Shown one piece after another: positions 51,330 through 64,000 of a stretch of DNA of 64,000 nt. How positions within the stretch are numbered: position 1 is the first letter of the stretch; every line of letters begins with the position of its first letter. Both the position numbers and the translations under genes were made by a program. The notes below the pieces were generated by a model that saw nothing but the letters and a program-made list of their open reading frames with translations, was not told where the DNA came from and did no database searches. This stretch comes from Acidobacteriota bacterium. Lineage in GTDB: Bacteria > Acidobacteriota > Terriglobia > Terriglobales > Acidobacteriaceae. The DNA lies in assembly GCA_018268755.1 (NCBI GenBank), contig JAFDVW010000019.1, positions 26,348-90,347 on the forward strand. Direction: 5' to 3'.

Positions 51330-53039
51330 CTACCAGAAGATCAGGTTCAGAATGACAAAGCCCACCGCCACCGCGATGGCCCAGGTGATGGGACGCTTGA
51401 AGAAGGGGAAATGCCCTTCCGCGGGAATCTCCGTCATGCCATAGACCAACCCTTTGAGTTCATGCGCGGGCTTGGGCTTGGTGAACAGAGTAATGACGAC
51501 GGTGGCCACCACGTTGGCGATCAGCGACCACATGGCGCGATAGATGTTCTCGGCCATGTCCTTGGCCTGGTCGGAGAAGGCAATGTACTTGAGCGCGCCG
51601 GGGTCGAGCTTCACCCAGAGCCACAGGCCCAGGGAGACGAGAATTCCGATGAGCAGTCCCCAGAAGCCGGCGGCGGGCGTGGTGCGCTTCCACAACATGC
51701 CCAGGATGACCGTGCCGAACATGGGCACGATGAAGAACACGAAGACGGCCTGGGCGTAGACGATGATGCTGGAGAAATTCATCACCAGATACGCAGTGCC
51801 GATGCTGACGAAAACCCCCAGCAGCGAGCACCAGCGGCCCATGGAGAGGTAATGGGCGTCGCTGGCCTGCTTGCGGATGAGCGGCTTGTAGATATCGTAA
51901 GTCCACACCGTGGCAAAGGCGCTGACATTGCCGGCCATGCCCGACATGAAGCCGGCCACCAGCGCGGTGATTCCGAGGCCCAGCAGTCCGGGGCCGCAGT
52001 AACGGGCCAGCATGAGGGGCAGCACTTCGTTATAGCTGTGCATGCCGGGACCCGCCATGCTCTCCGGCACCAGCTTGAAGGGGAGCACCGCCAGCCCCAG
52101 CAATCCGGGCAGGATGACGATCAGCGGCACCAGCATCTTGAAGAAGGCGCCAATGACGGTGCCCAGCTTGGCGGAGCGCAGGTCTTTCGCGGCCATGACG
52201 CGCTGCACCACGAGGAAGTCGGTGGTCCAGTAACCAAAGGAGATCGCCAGGCCCCAGCCGAAGACAATGCCGGTCCAATGCACGCCCATGGGATTGCCGG
52301 CAAAGGAGCCGGTGGTGCTCCACATGTGGATGAAATCCTGGCCGGGAAAATTCTGCTGGATGCGCTGCACCATGCCGTCCCAGCCGCCAGTCTCGATGAG
52401 CCCGACGATAGGAATGACCAGGCAGCCGATCCAAATGAGAAAGAACTGCAGGACCTCATTGAAGATGGCGGAAAGCAGGCCGCCGGCCATGACATAGACG
52501 GCCACGGTGAGCGACGAGACCCAGATGCTGAAATGGATGTTCCAGCCCAGAATGACCTTCATGATGATGGCCATGGAGAACATGTTGATGCCGCTCATCA
52601 GGATGGTCATGACCGCGAAGGAGATGGCGGAGACGGAACGCGCGCCTTCTCCGTAGCGCAGGTGGAGGTAGCCGGGCACGGAGTGGGTCTGGCAGATGTA
52701 ATAGAAGGGCAACATCACCAGGGCGAGAAAGAGAATGGCGGGGATGGCGGCGATCCAGTAAGCATGGGCGACGAGGATGCCGTACTGATAGGTGGCGGCG
52801 GCGTAGCCCATCATTTCCAGCGAGCCCAGGTTGGCGGAGATGAAGCTGAGCCCGGCGATCCAGGCCGTCATCTGGCGGCCGGCCATAAAGAATTCTTCGC
52901 TGGTGCTGGCGTAGCGGCGCAGATAGAGGCCCAGGCCCAGCACCAGGACAAAGTAGATGACGATGATGAGCAGGTCGACGGGCTTGAGCGACATGAGCCG
53001 CGCCCCGGCGGCGGCGAACCACAAGGCCATAGCCGGCAT
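51330..53039 (-). CDS. Sodium:solute symporter (SSS family), probable sugar transporter
   Basis: This 569-residue protein has about 13-14 membrane segments and SSS features: VDLLIIVIYFVLVLGLGLYL, EEFFMAGRQMTAWIAGLSF, GYAAATYQYGILVAHAYW and a mid-protein GWGLAISFGYWTTDFLVVQR. It should import a solute with sodium. ATG 53039 overlaps the stop codon of the DUF4380 gene (ATGA); an internal ATG at 52994 (MSLKPVD) is closer to the usual SSS start. The context of GH172, DUF4380 and a sugar isomerase implies a sugar substrate. Confidence 0.9.
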   Translation of the reverse strand: MPAMALWFAAAGARLMSLKPVDLLIIVIYFVLVLGLGLYLRRYASTSEEFFMAGRQMTAWIAGLSFISANLGSLEMMGYAAATYQYGILVAHAYWIAAIPAILFLALVMLPFYYICQTHSVPGYLHLRYGEGARSVSAISFAVMTILMSGINMFSMAIIMKVILGWNIHFSIWVSSLTVAVYVMAGGLLSAIFNEVLQFFLIWIGCLVIPIVGLIETGGWDGMVQRIQQNFPGQDFIHMWSTTGSFAGNPMGVHWTGIVFGWGLAISFGYWTTDFLVVQRVMAAKDLRSAKLGTVIGAFFKMLVPLIVILPGLLGLAVLPFKLVPESMAGPGMHSYNEVLPLMLARYCGPGLLGLGITALVAGFMSGMAGNVSAFATVWTYDIYKPLIRKQASDAHYLSMGRWCSLLGVFVSIGTAYLVMNFSSIIVYAQAVFVFFIVPMFGTVILGMLWKRTTPAAGFWGLLIGILVSLGLWLWVKLDPGALKYIAFSDQAKDMAENIYRAMWSLIANVVATVVITLFTKPKPAHELKGLVYGMTEIPAEGHFPFFKRPITWAIAVAVGFVILNLIFW

Positions 53040-54070
53040 CAGTCAAGGCCTCCCACGGTCTTGAGCGCCGGCAGGAGGACGCGGTCGAGTTCTTCATCGC
53101 TGATCGCCGAAGGCTTTACATTGCGGAAGAGGCCCCAGTGCTCGACCAGCTCCACGCTTTGACCCGGCACCAGTTTGGTCATGGGGCCGAGGCTTTCGAT
53201 CTCCAGGAAATCATGGTTGGTGAAGGTCTCAAAGGAACAGCCGAAGTCGGTATAAGTTTTCGAGGGATCGGCGGTGGTGCGCTTGATGAAGGCCTCGCCG
53301 TTCAGCAAGTACGCTCCCCAGGTGTCCGGGTTGAACGAGCCTAGTTTCTGCGGTTCGCTGTTGTTGGGGTCCTGGCGAAGGGTGAGATATTTGCGGGTGA
53401 ACTTCCAGCGCGGGTCGGCCAGATTGGTATAAGCCCACATGACCAGGGGGTTGGTGGCTTCGAGGTTGGCGGGATGATGTCCGCGCGGGGGGAAGCCGAA
53501 GACGGCGGTGCCGCCCTGCGCCATCATGGTCAGGGCCCAGGGCGCGAATTCGAGGGGATAGAGCGTGTGATTGGTGATGCGGTGCGAGACCTTCACGGCG
53601 CTGCCGGAGGCGGCCATGCTGACCTCGATTTCCTTCTGCAATCCAGAGAGGGGCTCGACGGGCTCGCGGGCGATGAGGCCGGTGGGCGTCACTTTGACTT
53701 CGACCGGCACATTATCGGGGGCCCAGGTGACGATGGGATCCTCCGGGGCCTTCCACACCCGGTCGCCGCCGCGGGGCTGGAACTTCTCTTCCCCGCTCTT
53801 GCCGATCTGCTCGCTGAACTCCTTGAAGAGGTTCTGTCCACCGACAAAACCGTAGCGGATGACGCGCGGCCCCACGTCGCCGGTGACGATGACCTCGACT
53901 TCCCCGTTGCTGACGCGATAGCAGTTCTTCCAGCCTTTGTATTCCGTCTTTTCCACTTTTACGGCAGCATGCATTGTCATAGTTGTCAGCACCAGGAAGG
54001 CCAGTACCAGCCGGGACCGGACCAGGAAAAATTGCAAACCAGGAGACAGGAGCTTATGCGACACAACCAT
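53039..54070 (-). CDS. Secreted DUF4380 family protein
   Basis: This 343-residue protein has a signal peptide (about 1-35, RLVLAFLVLTTMTMHAAV) and a DUF4380-type core: YRVSNGEVEVIVTGDVGPRV, then FGFPPRGHHPANL and LEIESLGPMTKLVPGQSVEL. The last part resembles the galactose mutarotase-like sandwich of aldose-1-epimerase relatives, where a GPRV/GRI-type strand and a late acidic residue occur. It may bind or epimerise the released sugar, which is an inference. GGAGGAAC precedes the ATG. Its stop overlaps the symporter start. Confidence 0.78.
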   Translation of the reverse strand: MVVSHKLLSPGLQFFLVRSRLVLAFLVLTTMTMHAAVKVEKTEYKGWKNCYRVSNGEVEVIVTGDVGPRVIRYGFVGGQNLFKEFSEQIGKSGEEKFQPRGGDRVWKAPEDPIVTWAPDNVPVEVKVTPTGLIAREPVEPLSGLQKEIEVSMAASGSAVKVSHRITNHTLYPLEFAPWALTMMAQGGTAVFGFPPRGHHPANLEATNPLVMWAYTNLADPRWKFTRKYLTLRQDPNNSEPQKLGSFNPDTWGAYLLNGEAFIKRTTADPSKTYTDFGCSFETFTNHDFLEIESLGPMTKLVPGQSVELVEHWGLFRNVKPSAISDEELDRVLLPALKTVGGLD

Positions 54071-55316: not shown

Positions 55317-55406
55317 AATAAACTGCTCTTCGTGCCGGAAAAAGAAAAAAATAAGCGTTAAATCAAGCCCTTAGGCTTTTACAGGAAGGCCATTGCGGTG
55401 TCAAGC

Positions 55407-55421
55407 GAAACGTTACGATTT
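55407..55421. promoter_or_regulatory. Probable LacI-family operator, lacI side
   Basis: GAAACGTTACGATTT, the inverted twin of the site at 55302-55316, lies 77-91 bases upstream of the regulator's start codon. The two centres are 105 bases apart, so a tetramer or two dimers could loop the divergent promoter region and also autoregulate. Confidence 0.7.
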
Positions 55422-55497
55422 TGCTTTTTTGGGCCGATCTACGAGCTTTCATGCTACATTTTGGCCACAGGCGCCCGTAAGGCGGGGTGCATGCTTG

Positions 55498-56526
55498 ATG
55501 GCCATCAAACCCAGAGCGAAATACACCATGCGAGATGTGGCCCGGTTGGCCGGGGTCTCCACTTCCACCGTGTCAGCGGTCATCAATGGCAGCGTGCCGG
55601 TCAGCTCGGCGCGGGCGGAAAAAGTGCGGGCCGCCATGGCCGCGCTGGATTATCACCCGGACGAAGTGGCCCGCAGCCTGAAGACCGGCCGGACCAACGT
55701 CGTCGGGGTCATTGTCCCTGACATCACCAACGCGTTTTATCCCGAGGTGGTGCGCGGGGTGGAGGAAGCGGCCGGCAAGGCCGGATACTCGGTGCTGCTG
55801 TGCGATTCCAGCGAAGACGCGCGCACCGAGGAAAAGCATCTGAATACTTTGTTCGCGCGGCGCGTGGATGGAGTGCTGCTGGCGTGCTGCGCCCACTCCA
55901 CAGCTTACGACACCATGGTGCGGCGGCGCTTCCCCATGGTGTTTGTGGACCGCGTGCCGGCGGCGGCGCCGGAAGGCACCATCGCCACCGACAATGTGGG
56001 GAGCGGGGCGATGGCGGCACGGCACCTGATTGCGCTGGGCCATGAGCGCATCGCCATGCTGGCGGGCAACCTGGAGCTCTCCCCGCACCGCGACCGGCTG
56101 GAAGGGTTTCGCAAGGCCATGCAGGAGGCGAACCTGCCCATCCGCGATGAATACCTGATCAGCGGGGGCGTGCAGGTGCAGGACGGCGATGACGCCGGCG
56201 TGCAACTGCTGGCGCTCCATCCCCGGCCCACGGCGATCATGGTCAGCAACAATCAGCTTTTCCTTGGACTGCTGCAGGCCTTGGAGAGGCGCCAGGTGCG
56301 CATTCCAGAAGAGGTCAGCGTGGTGGGATTTGACGACCACGTGTGGAACGCGCACTTTCATCCCAGCCTGACAGCGGTGGCGCAGGCGACCTTCGAGATG
56401 GGACGCCGCGGCTTTGAGCTGCTGCAACACATCATGGGCCGCAAGCCGGGCGAGGAGTTGCCGGAAAAGCATGTGCGGCTGGAAGCAGAGCTGCGCGTGA
56501 GGAATTCCACGGGGAGAGCGGGATAG
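55498..56526 (+). CDS. LacI-family transcriptional regulator
   Basis: This 342-residue protein has the LacI helix-turn-helix and hinge (YTMRDVARLAGVSTSTVSAV, then ALDYHPDEVARSLKTGRT) and a periplasmic-binding-protein-like sugar-sensing domain (NVVGVIVPDITNAFYPEVV, VDGVLLACC, VVGFDDHVWNAHFHPSLTAV). ATG 55498 gives the usual short N-terminus. It is divergent from GH172 copy 1, with two inverted copies of a candidate operator between them, and it probably represses the locus until a sugar product appears. The effector is unknown. Confidence 0.92.
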   Translation: MAIKPRAKYTMRDVARLAGVSTSTVSAVINGSVPVSSARAEKVRAAMAALDYHPDEVARSLKTGRTNVVGVIVPDITNAFYPEVVRGVEEAAGKAGYSVLLCDSSEDARTEEKHLNTLFARRVDGVLLACCAHSTAYDTMVRRRFPMVFVDRVPAAAPEGTIATDNVGSGAMAARHLIALGHERIAMLAGNLELSPHRDRLEGFRKAMQEANLPIRDEYLISGGVQVQDGDDAGVQLLALHPRPTAIMVSNNQLFLGLLQALERRQVRIPEEVSVVGFDDHVWNAHFHPSLTAVAQATFEMGRRGFELLQHIMGRKPGEELPEKHVRLEAELRVRNSTGRAG

Positions 56527-60107: not shown

Positions 60108-60875
60108 TCAGCCCTGGGCGAGGATACCGCCATCGACGGCGAGGCTGGTGCCGGTGATGTAGCCGGCGAACTCGGAGGCCAGGAAGAGCACGCCGCGCCC
60201 GACTTCTTCCGGCGTGGCCAGACGTTTCAATGGAATGCTATCCAGAAGTTTGCGGCGCGTTTCCTCGGGATTGGCCGAGTCCTCAATATAGCCGCGTACC
60301 AGCCGGGTGTCGGTGGCCCCGGGAATGATGCAGTTGACGCGGATGCCGTCTTTGGCGAGATCCAGCGCCAGGCCGCGCATGTAGGCCAGTTCCCCGCCCT
60401 TGGTGGCGGCATAGGCGGAGCAATTGGGATAGGTCACGAGGGCATGGCCGGAGGAGCTGATAATGATGGCGCCCTTTTTCTGCCTGCGCATGACGAGAGC
60501 CACATACTTGCAGGTGAGGAAGACGCCTTTCAGATTCACGCTGTGCAGGAGGTCCCACTCCTGCTCGGTAATTTCGGTGGCTTCTTTGTTGATCTGCACC
60601 GCCGCATTGGCATGGAGAATATCAATGCGCTGGTAGCGGGCCACCACCGCTTCGACCATCTTCTGGACCGAAGACGACTGGCTGACATCGCACTGCACGG
60701 CAAAAGCCTTGCGACCCGCCGCGGTGATTTCGCCGGCAGCTTTTTCGGCCGCGGCGCCATCCACATCAGCCACCACAACTACTGCGCCTTCGGCGGCGAA
60801 GACGTCCGCGGTGGCGCGGCCGATGCCGTTCCCGGCCCCGGTAATGATGACAACTTTATCTTTTACTCCCCACAT
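60108..60875 (-). CDS. Short-chain dehydrogenase/reductase (SDR), probable sugar dehydrogenase
   Basis: This 255-residue protein starts at ATG 60875 and has the classical SDR features: VVIITGAGNGIGRATADVF (NAD(P)-binding), ADVDG after strand 2 (Asp suggests NAD preference), ANAAV in the NAG position, catalytic Ser in IIISSSGHALV and Tyr-Lys in YAATKGG, and GYITGTSLAVDGG. It resembles sugar and polyol dehydrogenases. With sugar hydrolases and an aldolase-fold protein around, oxidation of the released sugar is plausible. The upstream GH172 gene in the same direction ends 37 bases before it. Confidence 0.9.
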   Translation of the reverse strand: MWGVKDKVVIITGAGNGIGRATADVFAAEGAVVVVADVDGAAAEKAAGEITAAGRKAFAVQCDVSQSSSVQKMVEAVVARYQRIDILHANAAVQINKEATEITEQEWDLLHSVNLKGVFLTCKYVALVMRRQKKGAIIISSSGHALVTYPNCSAYAATKGGELAYMRGLALDLAKDGIRVNCIIPGATDTRLVRGYIEDSANPEETRRKLLDSIPLKRLATPEEVGRGVLFLASEFAGYITGTSLAVDGGILAQG

Positions 60876-60912
60876 GGGCTTCTTTCTCCGTTCAACATTT
60901 GAGCTACAGGGC

Positions 60913-62040
60913 TCAGCCAAGCTTCAGTGCGGGGATCCGCTCCGCGACCGGCGCGAGCGCGGGAAAATCCGTGTACGGCTCGGTCTGATACCAATACGCG
61001 ACGGAGTAAAAGCAGTCGGCGCGGTTGTTGGCGTGGCCATGCTCCATCGTGTGTTTGAGGTACGTGCGGAAGGTCACGGGATTGTCGGCGTGCCAGCGAT
61101 ACATGCAATAGCGTCCGCCGGCCTGTTCCCCGGCATAGATCAGGTGCGCGCCGTTGTAGAGATGGGCAAAGGGATTGGCGACGGGAGGAACGCCGAAGTC
61201 CCAGGCGCCGTTAAAGTAGTCCTCGGACCCGGTGCCGACGATGGCGGGCTTCGACTCGTCGTCGATGAAGATCATGTCATCGCCTTCGCCCATCCAGCGG
61301 TCTTTGTTCTGCAGCACTCCCAGGGTCACACCCATCAGGTGGCCGCGGCCGCGGGTTTCCACAAACACGTAGTTCTTTTTGCCGTCGGTGTTCAAACCCC
61401 GCTGTCCCGCCGGGTACACTTCCGCGAGGTTGGGCGCGGCCTGACGATATTGCGCATGGAAATACAGCGTGCGCTCAGGCAGTGCAGGCACCAACTGATA
61501 GTCGATGTTGGAATAGAAGTCACCGACTTCCTCCGCGCCCTGGTTGGTCACGGTGATGCGCGCGGACTTGCGGAAGGGCATGGCGAAATAACAGTTCAGG
61601 GCCTGGGCCGAAGAACAATTCAGGAAGGCGGACTGATAAATATTGTAGAGGCCCAGGTTCAACCCGAAGAAATCGCCGATGGGAGTTTCCACGCTGGGCT
61701 TGGAATGGCCGTCCCAATACATGCGCAACACCAGCTCTTTCAGATGATGGCGGCTGTTCGCGGCGATGGTGAACCAGATGTGGGTGATGACGCCGGGCCC
61801 GTCGGAGCGGAACACTTCCCTGGTTTCCCCGGCGGGAATGGGCCAGCTGTCTCCATTGCCCCCAGTGGGATCGTTGCTGGATTGCTTGAGGGAGCGGTAG
61901 TCCTGGGCAAGCGCGTATTCGGGAAGCTGGAAGTTTGCGGGAGACGATGCGGCGCCGGGCATTTCCGCTCCGGCAGCGACGCCGGCCGCCCCCAGTACAG
62001 CCAGATGACCCAGAAAACGTCTGCGCAGCAAGCGGTCCAT
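60913..62040 (-). CDS. GH172 (DUF2961) glycoside hydrolase, copy 2
   Basis: This 375-residue protein starts at ATG 62040 (AAGGGGG upstream). Its leader MDRLLRRRFLGHLAVLGAAG has an RRRFL pattern typical of the twin-arginine (Tat) export route, unlike the Sec leader of copy 1. Family blocks are VITHIWFTIAANSRHHLKEL, ETPIGDFFGLNLGLYN, YFAMPFRKSARITVTN and the two glutamates in WMGEGDDMIFIDD (about 251) and GTGSEDYFNGAWDF (about 272), 21 residues apart. Copies 2 and 3 share GDFFGLNLG and end in SYWYQTEPH-type segments, so they are closer to each other than to copy 1. Confidence 0.92.
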   Translation of the reverse strand: MDRLLRRRFLGHLAVLGAAGVAAGAEMPGAASSPANFQLPEYALAQDYRSLKQSSNDPTGGNGDSWPIPAGETREVFRSDGPGVITHIWFTIAANSRHHLKELVLRMYWDGHSKPSVETPIGDFFGLNLGLYNIYQSAFLNCSSAQALNCYFAMPFRKSARITVTNQGAEEVGDFYSNIDYQLVPALPERTLYFHAQYRQAAPNLAEVYPAGQRGLNTDGKKNYVFVETRGRGHLMGVTLGVLQNKDRWMGEGDDMIFIDDESKPAIVGTGSEDYFNGAWDFGVPPVANPFAHLYNGAHLIYAGEQAGGRYCMYRWHADNPVTFRTYLKHTMEHGHANNRADCFYSVAYWYQTEPYTDFPALAPVAERIPALKLG

Positions 62041-62210
62041 GGTGCCCCCTTGGGAATAAATGTCTCCGCAGCGACTATACCGCATCGATCCAGGCCATTT
62101 TCCGTGGAAAATCGCGCGCTGCAGCCCAGGGACCCCGGGCACCGGCCCCTAGCTACTGCGCCGATCCCCCGGGCAAAGCGATAGAAGGCGCGTGGCGAGA
62201 GCCACGATCC

Positions 62211-63110
62211 CTACACCAGGGCGATGCCTTCGCGGCCGAGGACCTCCCGAACTTCACGATCCGCATGGGGGCCCAGCACGTTATAAGGACTGCGCGGACC
62301 GCCGACGGCGCGGCCCTGGGCCGTGATAGCGACACGCAGGCGCGCTTCCCGTTCCGCGGGATTATTCAGAATGCGCCAGAAGCGGACCAGGCGGTCATGA
62401 TGAAAACGGGCGCGTTCATGCTCACCCTGTTGGAAGGCGGCATACAGGTCGGCAAGGTCGGCGGGAAATCCGGCGCCCAGGTCGGAGATCAAGCCATGCG
62501 CGCCCAGCAACAGGCCGATGTAATGCAGATCCTCGATACCGCTGTAAATGGGGACGCCTTTCAGCGAATAAAGCAGATCGACGAGGACGTGCGCGTCCGC
62601 CGCTTGCAGGACGCCATCGATGAGCTTTTCGCGAAGCAGGCGGGTGGTCGCCTTCAGGCCCACGACCGCCGTGGGAAAACAATCGGCAAGCAGCAAGGGG
62701 ACTTTGGTGGCCTGGCGCAGATCCGAAAACTGCGCCACCAGGCCCTCTTCATCGGGCTGACAGAGATAGTGGGGTTGGGCCACCAGCACGGCGGAAGCGC
62801 CTGCCCCGGTCACGGCGCGCACCATCTCGATAGCTTCGGGACGAGTATCGGGGAAGGCGGTGGCGAACAGCGGTTTGCGGGAGCTGCGGCGAACGGTTTC
62901 GCAGATCAGGGCCAGTTCCTGCGCTGAAGCCCCTTCGGTGCCACTCAGCATACCGCCCACAGAGAGGGCGTGCACCGGGGCCCGGTCGAGCAAGAGAGCT
63001 TCCTTGCGCAGAAGGTCGATATCAATTTCGTCGTTGGCGGCAAACGGGACCACAATGCTCGCCACGACGCCACTCGGTAGTTCACTAGCTGCCACAGGCT
63101 TTCCTTTCAC
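62211..63110 (-). CDS. DHDPS/aldolase-family protein lacking the Schiff-base lysine
   Basis: This 299-residue protein, with a GTG start at 63110, fits the dihydrodipicolinate synthase/N-acetylneuraminate lyase TIM-barrel family: VGGMLSGTEGASAQELALI in the usual GTTGE place, VAQPHYLCQPDEEGL in the YYNKP place, and HGLISDLGAGFPADLADLY near the end. The lysine that forms the Schiff base would lie in a GIK motif; here the segment is LIDGVLQAADAHV, with Gln169 at that position. The conserved tyrosine of the ILYNVP segment is also missing (LLLADCFP). It is therefore probably not a normal pyruvate aldolase. It sits 9 bases after GH172 copy 3. Confidence 0.85.
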   Translation of the reverse strand: MKGKPVAASELPSGVVASIVVPFAANDEIDIDLLRKEALLLDRAPVHALSVGGMLSGTEGASAQELALICETVRRSSRKPLFATAFPDTRPEAIEMVRAVTGAGASAVLVAQPHYLCQPDEEGLVAQFSDLRQATKVPLLLADCFPTAVVGLKATTRLLREKLIDGVLQAADAHVLVDLLYSLKGVPIYSGIEDLHYIGLLLGAHGLISDLGAGFPADLADLYAAFQQGEHERARFHHDRLVRFWRILNNPAEREARLRVAITAQGRAVGGPRSPYNVLGPHADREVREVLGREGIALV

Positions 63111-63119
63111 AGTCCGCAG

Positions 63120-64000
63120 TTAGTACATTCGGGGGTCCTGCCCAGGACCGGCCACGGGATTGATGCGTGGAATGCGGTCCGAAACGGATGGTAGAGCTGG
63201 AAACTCGGCGTGGGGTTCGGTCTGGTACCAATAAGCCGCCGAAAATATATTGTCGGAACGAAGATTGGCATGGCCGTCTTCAATGGTGGCGCGAATGGAT
63301 TTATGAAACCGCACCGGCGCTTCCAGATGCCAACGGTAGTGGGAAAAGCGCGAACCCGCTTCCCACCCCTGGAACTCGGTGAGGCCGATCAGGGGGAAAG
63401 AAAACAGTGAACTGAACCCCCAGGCGCCGTTGAAGTAGTCTTCGCCGCCGGTACCGTGAATGCGCGGCCGGGCCTCGCCGTCGATCCAGAACATTTCGTC
63501 GCCTTCGTTCCAGCCGCCCCACTGGTTCTGCAACACGGAGAAAGTCACGCCGATGAACTGCCCGTTGCCCTGGGCCTCGAGCATGACGTAGTTCTGGTCG
63601 CCGGAAGTATTTTTCCAGCGCGGGTCTTGCCGGGCCTCTTTGAAATTGTTGCCGTAGAAATTGCCGTGATACCAACCCTGGCAAGGAGAACACTGGCGAT
63701 ACTGGGCGTGGAAATAGGCGGTGTTGGCGGGCAGCGATGGCACGCGCACCCAATCGATGTTCCAGTAGAAATCGTCGGCGGTCCGGGTGCCGTCATTGGT
63801 GGCGGTAATGCGCGCCGAACGGGCGAAGGGCATGGGGAAATAGGCGTTCAAGCCCTTGTCCGGGGCGACCACCACCAGGGCGGAGTTGAACACTTTGTAG
63901 TTGCCCAGATTGAGGCCAAAGAAATCGCCAAGCGGGACTTCCACGCTGGGCTTGGTTTCGCCGTCCCAGTACATGCGTAAGACGATCTTCTTCAGATGGT
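63120..64000 (-). CDS. GH172 (DUF2961) glycoside hydrolase, copy 3 (5' end beyond window)
   Basis: About 293 C-terminal residues are in the window, and the frame is open through base 64000, so the start lies further right. Blocks are VPLGDFFGLNLGNYK, YFPMPFARSARITATN and the two glutamates in GGWNEGDEMFWIDGE and HGTGGEDYFNGAWGF, 21 residues apart. The stop codon precedes the DHDPS-family start by 9 bases, so the two are in one operon, possibly extending to GH172 copy 2. A signal peptide cannot be checked here. Confidence 0.9.
   Translation of the reverse strand, partial: HLKKIVLRMYWDGETKPSVEVPLGDFFGLNLGNYKVFNSALVVVAPDKGLNAYFPMPFARSARITATNDGTRTADDFYWNIDWVRVPSLPANTAYFHAQYRQCSPCQGWYHGNFYGNNFKEARQDPRWKNTSGDQNYVMLEAQGNGQFIGVTFSVLQNQWGGWNEGDEMFWIDGEARPRIHGTGGEDYFNGAWGFSSLFSFPLIGLTEFQGWEAGSRFSHYRWHLEAPVRFHKSIRATIEDGHANLRSDNIFSAAYWYQTEPHAEFPALPSVSDRIPRINPVAGPGQDPRMY

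Follow-up and report, generated by a model that had tools for sequence, protein, structure and literature searches.

What can a protein of the DHDPS/NAL superfamily do in a sugar locus once it has no Schiff-base lysine, the residue that defines one of the best-studied enzyme superfamilies? The question is raised by a gene at 62211-63110 (- strand) of the window, the stretch of 64,000 nucleotides from the acidobacterial genome G000 that was analysed here. An automatic name such as "dihydrodipicolinate synthase family protein" would mislead for such a protein.

Gene and predicted fold

The reading frame at 62211-63110 (- strand) is intact and, read from the GTG at 63110, encodes 299 residues without an internal stop. 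The true start may instead be a second GTG in the same frame, at 63095, with AAAGGA before it. The protein matches PF00701 with 59.8 bits (curated cut-off 22.1) over residues 13-289, corresponding to profile positions 3-284 of 289, and reaches no equivalog cut-off in NCBIfam (76 bits for dapA, where 206 are needed). The initial annotation had proposed a check by alignment and structure prediction, and both were carried out. AlphaFold2, run on a 42-row alignment, gave a confident (beta/alpha)8 barrel of the DHDPS type with C-terminal helices (mean pLDDT 93.8, pTM 0.92), whose nearest solved structures (Foldseek, VIA-align) are DHDPS, YagE and HOGA, the best matches having a Z of 36-37 and an rmsd of 1.7-1.9 over 284-288 residues. 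By sequence profile and predicted fold, the protein belongs to the DHDPS/NAL superfamily. It consists of one domain, and the Pfam search revealed no DNA-binding or signalling part.

Catalytic positions lost and kept

In the 42-row alignment, the near-invariant lysine column (K161 in E. coli DHDPS) falls on position 168 of the window protein, which is a leucine (Leu168, CTG, 62607-62609, - strand); the neighbouring paralogue reads GVKQSG at this place and the window protein GVLQAA. The initial annotation was thus right about the missing lysine, but the residue it named in the lysine's place, Gln169 (CAA, 62604-62606, - strand), is one residue off. The alignments rule it out as a replacement, as it is the usual neighbour of the lysine column and is a glutamine in all 37 close Lys-bearing homologues. 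Since Gln169 is the wrong residue, the suggested search for family members with a glutamine there would mostly return ordinary aldolases. The catalytic tyrosine of the YNVP segment (E. coli Y133), also described as absent, is indeed replaced by Ala142 (62685-62687, - strand), and by serine in the three orthologues presented below. The GTTGE-like block had been described as retained, but it reads GMLSG (G53-M54-L55-S56-G57), with Met54-Leu55-Ser56-Gly57 (62940-62951, - strand) in place of T44-T45-G46-E47 of the E. coli enzyme. As for the YxxP-like block, P146 is kept in the window protein, as had been claimed, but the three orthologues have R, Q and R there.

The four Lys-less proteins were compared with 73 Lys-bearing homologues picked by similarity to the window protein, which comprise 3 members of clade KC, 5 of KA, 29 of KB and 36 others (L142, which equals L135 in sequence, was excluded). 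The lysine column is L/L/H/H in the four proteins vs lysine in all 73, and the tyrosine column A/S/S/S vs tyrosine in all 73. The GTTGE block reads GMLSG, SFMSE, GVISE and GIASE in the four; among the more distant homologues, 34 of 36 have G at position 56 and 34 of 36 have E at position 57. Fifteen positions are at least 95% conserved among the 73 homologues, a count that takes in only positions either kept or lost by all four Lys-less proteins: 11 are kept, namely glycines, prolines and other residues of the fold, and four are lost, namely Y142, K168, G84 and, in the GTTGE block, G56. These four positions sit in the catalytic pocket or beside it, G84 being placed near the pocket on account of its predicted location at the end of strand 3. 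Tyr115 (62766-62768, - strand), in the column of the tyrosine that enters the adjoining subunit in E. coli DHDPS (Y107; available part of PMC3369909), is a tyrosine in all four.

Judged from their sequences, the four proteins have lost all catalytic positions, and the window protein fails the marks of a class I enzyme: the catalytic lysine in strand 6, the relay tyrosine (or the glutamate of KdaD) and the GTTGE/GxxGE block. That it would still be a class I aldolase, with its Schiff-base lysine moved elsewhere, is hardly tenable. The protein does have eight lysines, but none is common to the four orthologues, and the model places all eight away from the C-terminal ends of strands: they are found in helices, in the N-terminus and in strand-preceding loops (DSSP string, not coordinates). 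Lys153, which the initial annotation had considered for the active site, is in helix 152-160 and the others are in the N-terminus, in helix 31-43 or in the loops, so a second Schiff-base lysine was discarded as a candidate.

The window protein is alone in its own genome in this respect. G000 has 10 PF00701 places, 9 of them above the cut-off and two being pieces of one gene, and all the other proteins keep a lysine in the equivalent stretch of their translations. Two of the Lys-bearing genes have peculiarities of their own. L007 (G000:C35:85995-86795, - strand) has a twin-arginine-like signal at its start (MNWSRREFIKAGAVLGSA), which suggests an exported aldolase-family protein. L010 (G000:C9:264478-265536, reverse strand) has a frame of 362 codons in which several dozen extra residues follow the Lys-bearing strand and split the profile match to the protein into two pieces.

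Orthologues and rarity

Three orthologues from other Acidobacteria are 47, 45 and 45% identical to the window protein in one alignment. One of them, in locus L072 of the gp3 MAG G446, directly follows a Lys-bearing KA-type gene (49% identity in the three-row alignment scan), the third Lys-less protein (L089) is from the gp11 MAG G447, and the fourth (L093/L122) is from G1011, one of 257 genomes searched in the order of G446. As the same losses occur in three orthologues from other genomes, chance or sequence error is excluded, and the predicted loss of Schiff-base chemistry is well supported by the four orthologues. A scan of genome contigs with the window protein as single query found no relative, and six were found with a three-row alignment. 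Among plasmids, 30 records of relatives were obtained, and the 2 examined both keep the lysine and the tyrosine.

The Lys-less members are rare and come from a handful of soil Acidobacteria. They were found in 1 of 396 genomes of a phylum sample (single-sequence query), 1 of 398 of the family sample, 2 of 399 of the window's class sample, 2 of 257 in the order of G446 and 1 of 399 of the class sample of G447, with the genome around which a sample was built counted each time; the samples overlap, and the distinct genomes amount to four in total. Judged by identical coordinates, five genomes carry two handles (G242/G448, G447/G1369, G1131/G1404, G1173/G1446 and G1101/G1374). The G446-order search gave 53 places in 49 genomes, and of the 29 loci in which residues were read (L093-L121), only L093 is Lys-less. 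The G447-class search gave 34 places, with five further loci read (L134-L138) in addition to L142, and the 33 places of the window-class search were assigned by score. Unread places were called Lys-bearing by E values of 1e-31 to 1e-44 in the G446-order and G447-class searches, and down to 1e-76 in the window-class search; the Lys-less members score 1e-117 or better, which leaves a wide gap to the other clades. The Lys-less proteins are a real, conserved branch of a known superfamily, and no such clade of the DHDPS/NAL superfamily is reported in the literature searched, which covers few subscription journals.

Phylogeny and selective constraint

The four Lys-less proteins form one clade (100/100), preceded by a long stem of 1.32 and 1.06 changes per column in the two trees. 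The first tree comprised 38 rows, including 9 of 27 KB and 20 of 36 outgroup rows; the second comprised 33 rows, including 7 of 27 KB rows, L137 and 12 of 36 outgroup rows, after removal of five long or distant outgroup rows. In the tree that includes clade KC, KC is the sister of the Lys-less clade (97/92) and KA comes next; in the tree without KC, the Lys-less clade lies beside KA (93/85). Grouping with KA instead of KC was not firmly rejected (p-AU 0.06). A simple local duplication of the upstream KA gene was considered and is not claimed, because of the grouping with KC. The trees pair the window genome with G446 as sisters among the KA proteins as well as among the Lys-less ones, which fits KA and Lys-less genes travelling together.

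The distribution of changes within the clade is uneven. Pairwise identity among the Lys-less proteins is 0.37 at five catalytic-core columns vs 0.46 in the rest of the protein, and the same five columns show 0.86-0.97 in three Lys-bearing groups; this low core identity indicates relaxed constraint at the catalytic core. Between orthologues, differences at second codon positions are about half as frequent as those at third positions (e.g. 0.30 vs 0.64), so the protein is under purifying selection. Taken with the core and rest identities, this argues for a protein that is constrained as a whole and in which the catalytic core has been released. A decaying duplicate without function could account for the long stem and for the few members found in the window's class sample (2 of 399) and in the order of G446 (2 of 257), but we give it very little credence, given four intact ORFs in four genomes, the much greater likeness of second than of third codon positions, 86 residues invariant in all four proteins and a module common to the four genomes.

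Genomic context

The sugar-locus setting recognized in the initial annotation is borne out by Pfam, as GH172/DUF2961 genes lie on both sides of the Lys-less gene. The one directly upstream (63120-63998, - strand; complete as L009:7468-8610:-) ends 9 bases short of the GTG at 63110, and the other is directly downstream (60913-62142, - strand). An SDR-family dehydrogenase gene (60108-60920, - strand) lies on the same strand; L072 and L122, which belong to two of the three orthologues, contain an SDR too. The cluster extends past the window. Two genes upstream of the Lys-less gene, on the same strand, is KA, a Lys-bearing PF00701 paralogue (G000:C10:90606-91499). Upstream on the same strand are also an unclassified probable glycosidase without NCBIfam match (C10:91699-93240), which may be GH27-like, an aldehyde dehydrogenase, a GH172, an IlvD-type dehydratase and an FAD protein. 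Farther along, the cluster has an enolase-superfamily dehydratase (C10:106061-107215) as well as a PF00701 protein that bears the lysine and resembles keto-deoxy-pentonate dehydratases (G000:C10:116166-117074); its best PDB hits are L-2-keto-3-deoxyarabonate dehydratases (3fkk, 7c0c). Beside a GH172 gene, the window also contains a gene (53039-54070, - strand) for a 343-aa protein with a signal-like N-terminus and no Pfam match at E 1e-3.

Much of this module is common to the four Lys-less genomes. All four have GH172, the dehydratase-like paralogue (64-73% identical to that of the window genome) and the enolase-superfamily dehydratase (74-77%; in G446, two end pieces with 75 and 80%). The location of these pieces on two contig ends of G446 suggests that the dehydratase-like gene and the KA/Lys-less pair belong to one cluster. 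In G1011, the Lys-less gene sits among module genes; in G1101, the module has a Lys-bearing KC protein. SSS and D-galactonate-type MFS transporters and IclR-type regulators recur in the loci, some being recognized by translation likeness only. The GH172 gene of G446 (L072:5055-5829, - strand) is split over two frames, through a frameshift or an assembly error.

According to the accessible part of PMC10115798, those GH172 enzymes that have been characterised release D-arabinose, and pentose routes through 2-keto-3-deoxypentonate are described in that of PMC6336799. Considering the gene families, the pathway is therefore likely that of D-arabinose, or of another pentose, via 2-keto-3-deoxypentonate.

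Possible role of the Lys-less protein

Our preferred reading, to which we assign a probability of about one half, is that the protein is a conserved pseudo-aldolase of the pentonate pathway and acts as a non-catalytic partner of a Lys-bearing paralogue. It would be a correctly folded DHDPS/NAL barrel that is unable to form the Schiff base (Lys to Leu/His) and whose proton relay would be lost as well (Tyr to Ala/Ser, Thr-Thr to hydrophobic residues), and selection would keep it inside a pentose/pentonate catabolic module. In this module, going by the gene families, GH172 would free a furanose such as D-arabinose, the SDR and the dehydratase would lead to 2-keto-3-deoxypentonate, and a Lys-bearing dehydratase or aldolase, then the aldehyde dehydrogenase, would act on the product. 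The Lys-less protein may assemble with a Lys-bearing paralogue as a non-catalytic subunit or a ligand-binding partner, the candidates being KA (G000:C10:90606-91499) and the keto-deoxy-pentonate-dehydratase-like protein.

The loss of both the lysine and the tyrosine rules out the ordinary mechanism. Catalysis by human HOGA is reported to require both of their equivalents, Lys196 and Tyr168, in the part of PMC3188589 that is available, and DHDPS mutated at K161 is reported to be largely impaired in activity (PMC3369909, likewise in part). What the protein has kept, namely the fold, Tyr115 and the module, suggests that it is the non-catalytic partner of a Lys-bearing paralogue. The candidate partner KA is present in three of the four Lys-less genomes and the dehydratase-like paralogue in all four. 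Three observations count against the partner reading. In G1011, an assembly of only 3.6 Mb, the search gave no close Lys-bearing partner from clades KA/KC; G242 (the same genome as G448) and G828 have the KA partner without the Lys-less protein; and S56, T147 and E193, which lie in the pocket or close to it and are invariant in and specific to the Lys-less proteins, could point to a rebuilt working site.

The last observation leads to the main rival reading, which we regard as tentative: the protein may be an enzyme in its own right, acting on a keto acid, lactone or sugar acid of this pathway by chemistry that needs no Schiff base. Its pocket might have been rebuilt, e.g. with S56, S/A142, N/D143, C/S144, T147 and E193, which we consider equally tentative. 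S56, T147 and E193 are invariant in the four proteins and rare or absent in the 73 Lys-bearing homologues, and the pocket columns together, selected by hand from E. coli numbering, show a higher identity within the four (0.61) than does the remainder of the protein (0.46). Moreover, the Lys-less gene of G1011 sits among module genes where the module of G1101 has KC, and neither KA nor KC was found in G1011. However, a conserved new active site would not be expected to vary as these proteins do at the catalytic heart (M/F/V/I, L/M/I/A and L/L/H/H), and G1011, with its dehydratase-like paralogue, may have a dehydratase route that needs no aldolase, so its Lys-less gene need not replace one.

Returning to the partner reading, a stricter form of it would be an aldolase made from two genes: the Lys-less protein would pair with KA in a mixed tight dimer and donate Tyr115 across the interface. 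The Tyr115 column is a Phe in all five KA proteins (L009:8607-9500:-, L071:9947-10885:+, L072:848-1783:+, L073:34-996:+ and L113), where nearly all relatives have the inter-subunit tyrosine. Nevertheless, we consider this form unlikely, since two genomes have KA, with its Phe, without the Lys-less protein, and the equivalent tyrosine of human HOGA is apparently not needed, according to the available part of PMC3188589. If true, a live subunit would have its active site completed by a dead one, an arrangement without precedent for the superfamily in the literature searched.

The initial annotation had proposed a different chemistry or a sensing role. This was a fair reading of a DHDPS fold without lysine, but no feature in support of the sensing part emerged, the protein being a single domain devoid of a DNA-binding part. 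A metabolite sensor acting on the regulators of the locus is very unlikely: regulators of the LacI and IclR types do lie nearby (a LacI-type regulator at 55393-56526 of the window and an IclR-type gene in L122), but the protein has no signalling part either and the LacI-type regulator has its own ligand-binding domain, as found with Pfam. Whether it serves as partner subunit or through other chemistry, a Lys-less clade retained within a sugar-acid pathway is a clean natural experiment on the repurposing of this barrel.

Comparison with known systems

The Lys-less protein has the PF00701 profile, the barrel, the C-terminal helices and the Y107-type tyrosine in common with DapA, NanA, KdgA, YagE and HOGA, but it lacks their Schiff-base lysine, relay tyrosine and GTTGE block. 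The GH172 (DUF2961) exo-D-arabinofuranosidases are the predicted family of its neighbouring genes, not its relatives. Its nearest relatives in the tree, clades KC (L134, L135 and L136) and KA, are surrounded by a similar module in G828 and G1101 and keep the K, YNV and GSTGEG-like blocks, whereas the Lys-less clade does not. The L-2-keto-3-deoxyarabonate dehydratases (3fkk, 7c0c) belong to the same superfamily, and the available part of PMC13398020 describes KdaD as also lacking the relay tyrosine, with a catalytic glutamate in its place. However, L-2-keto-3-deoxyarabonate dehydratase keeps the Schiff-base lysine, whereas the Lys-less protein has dispensed with both the lysine and the glutamate at these positions.
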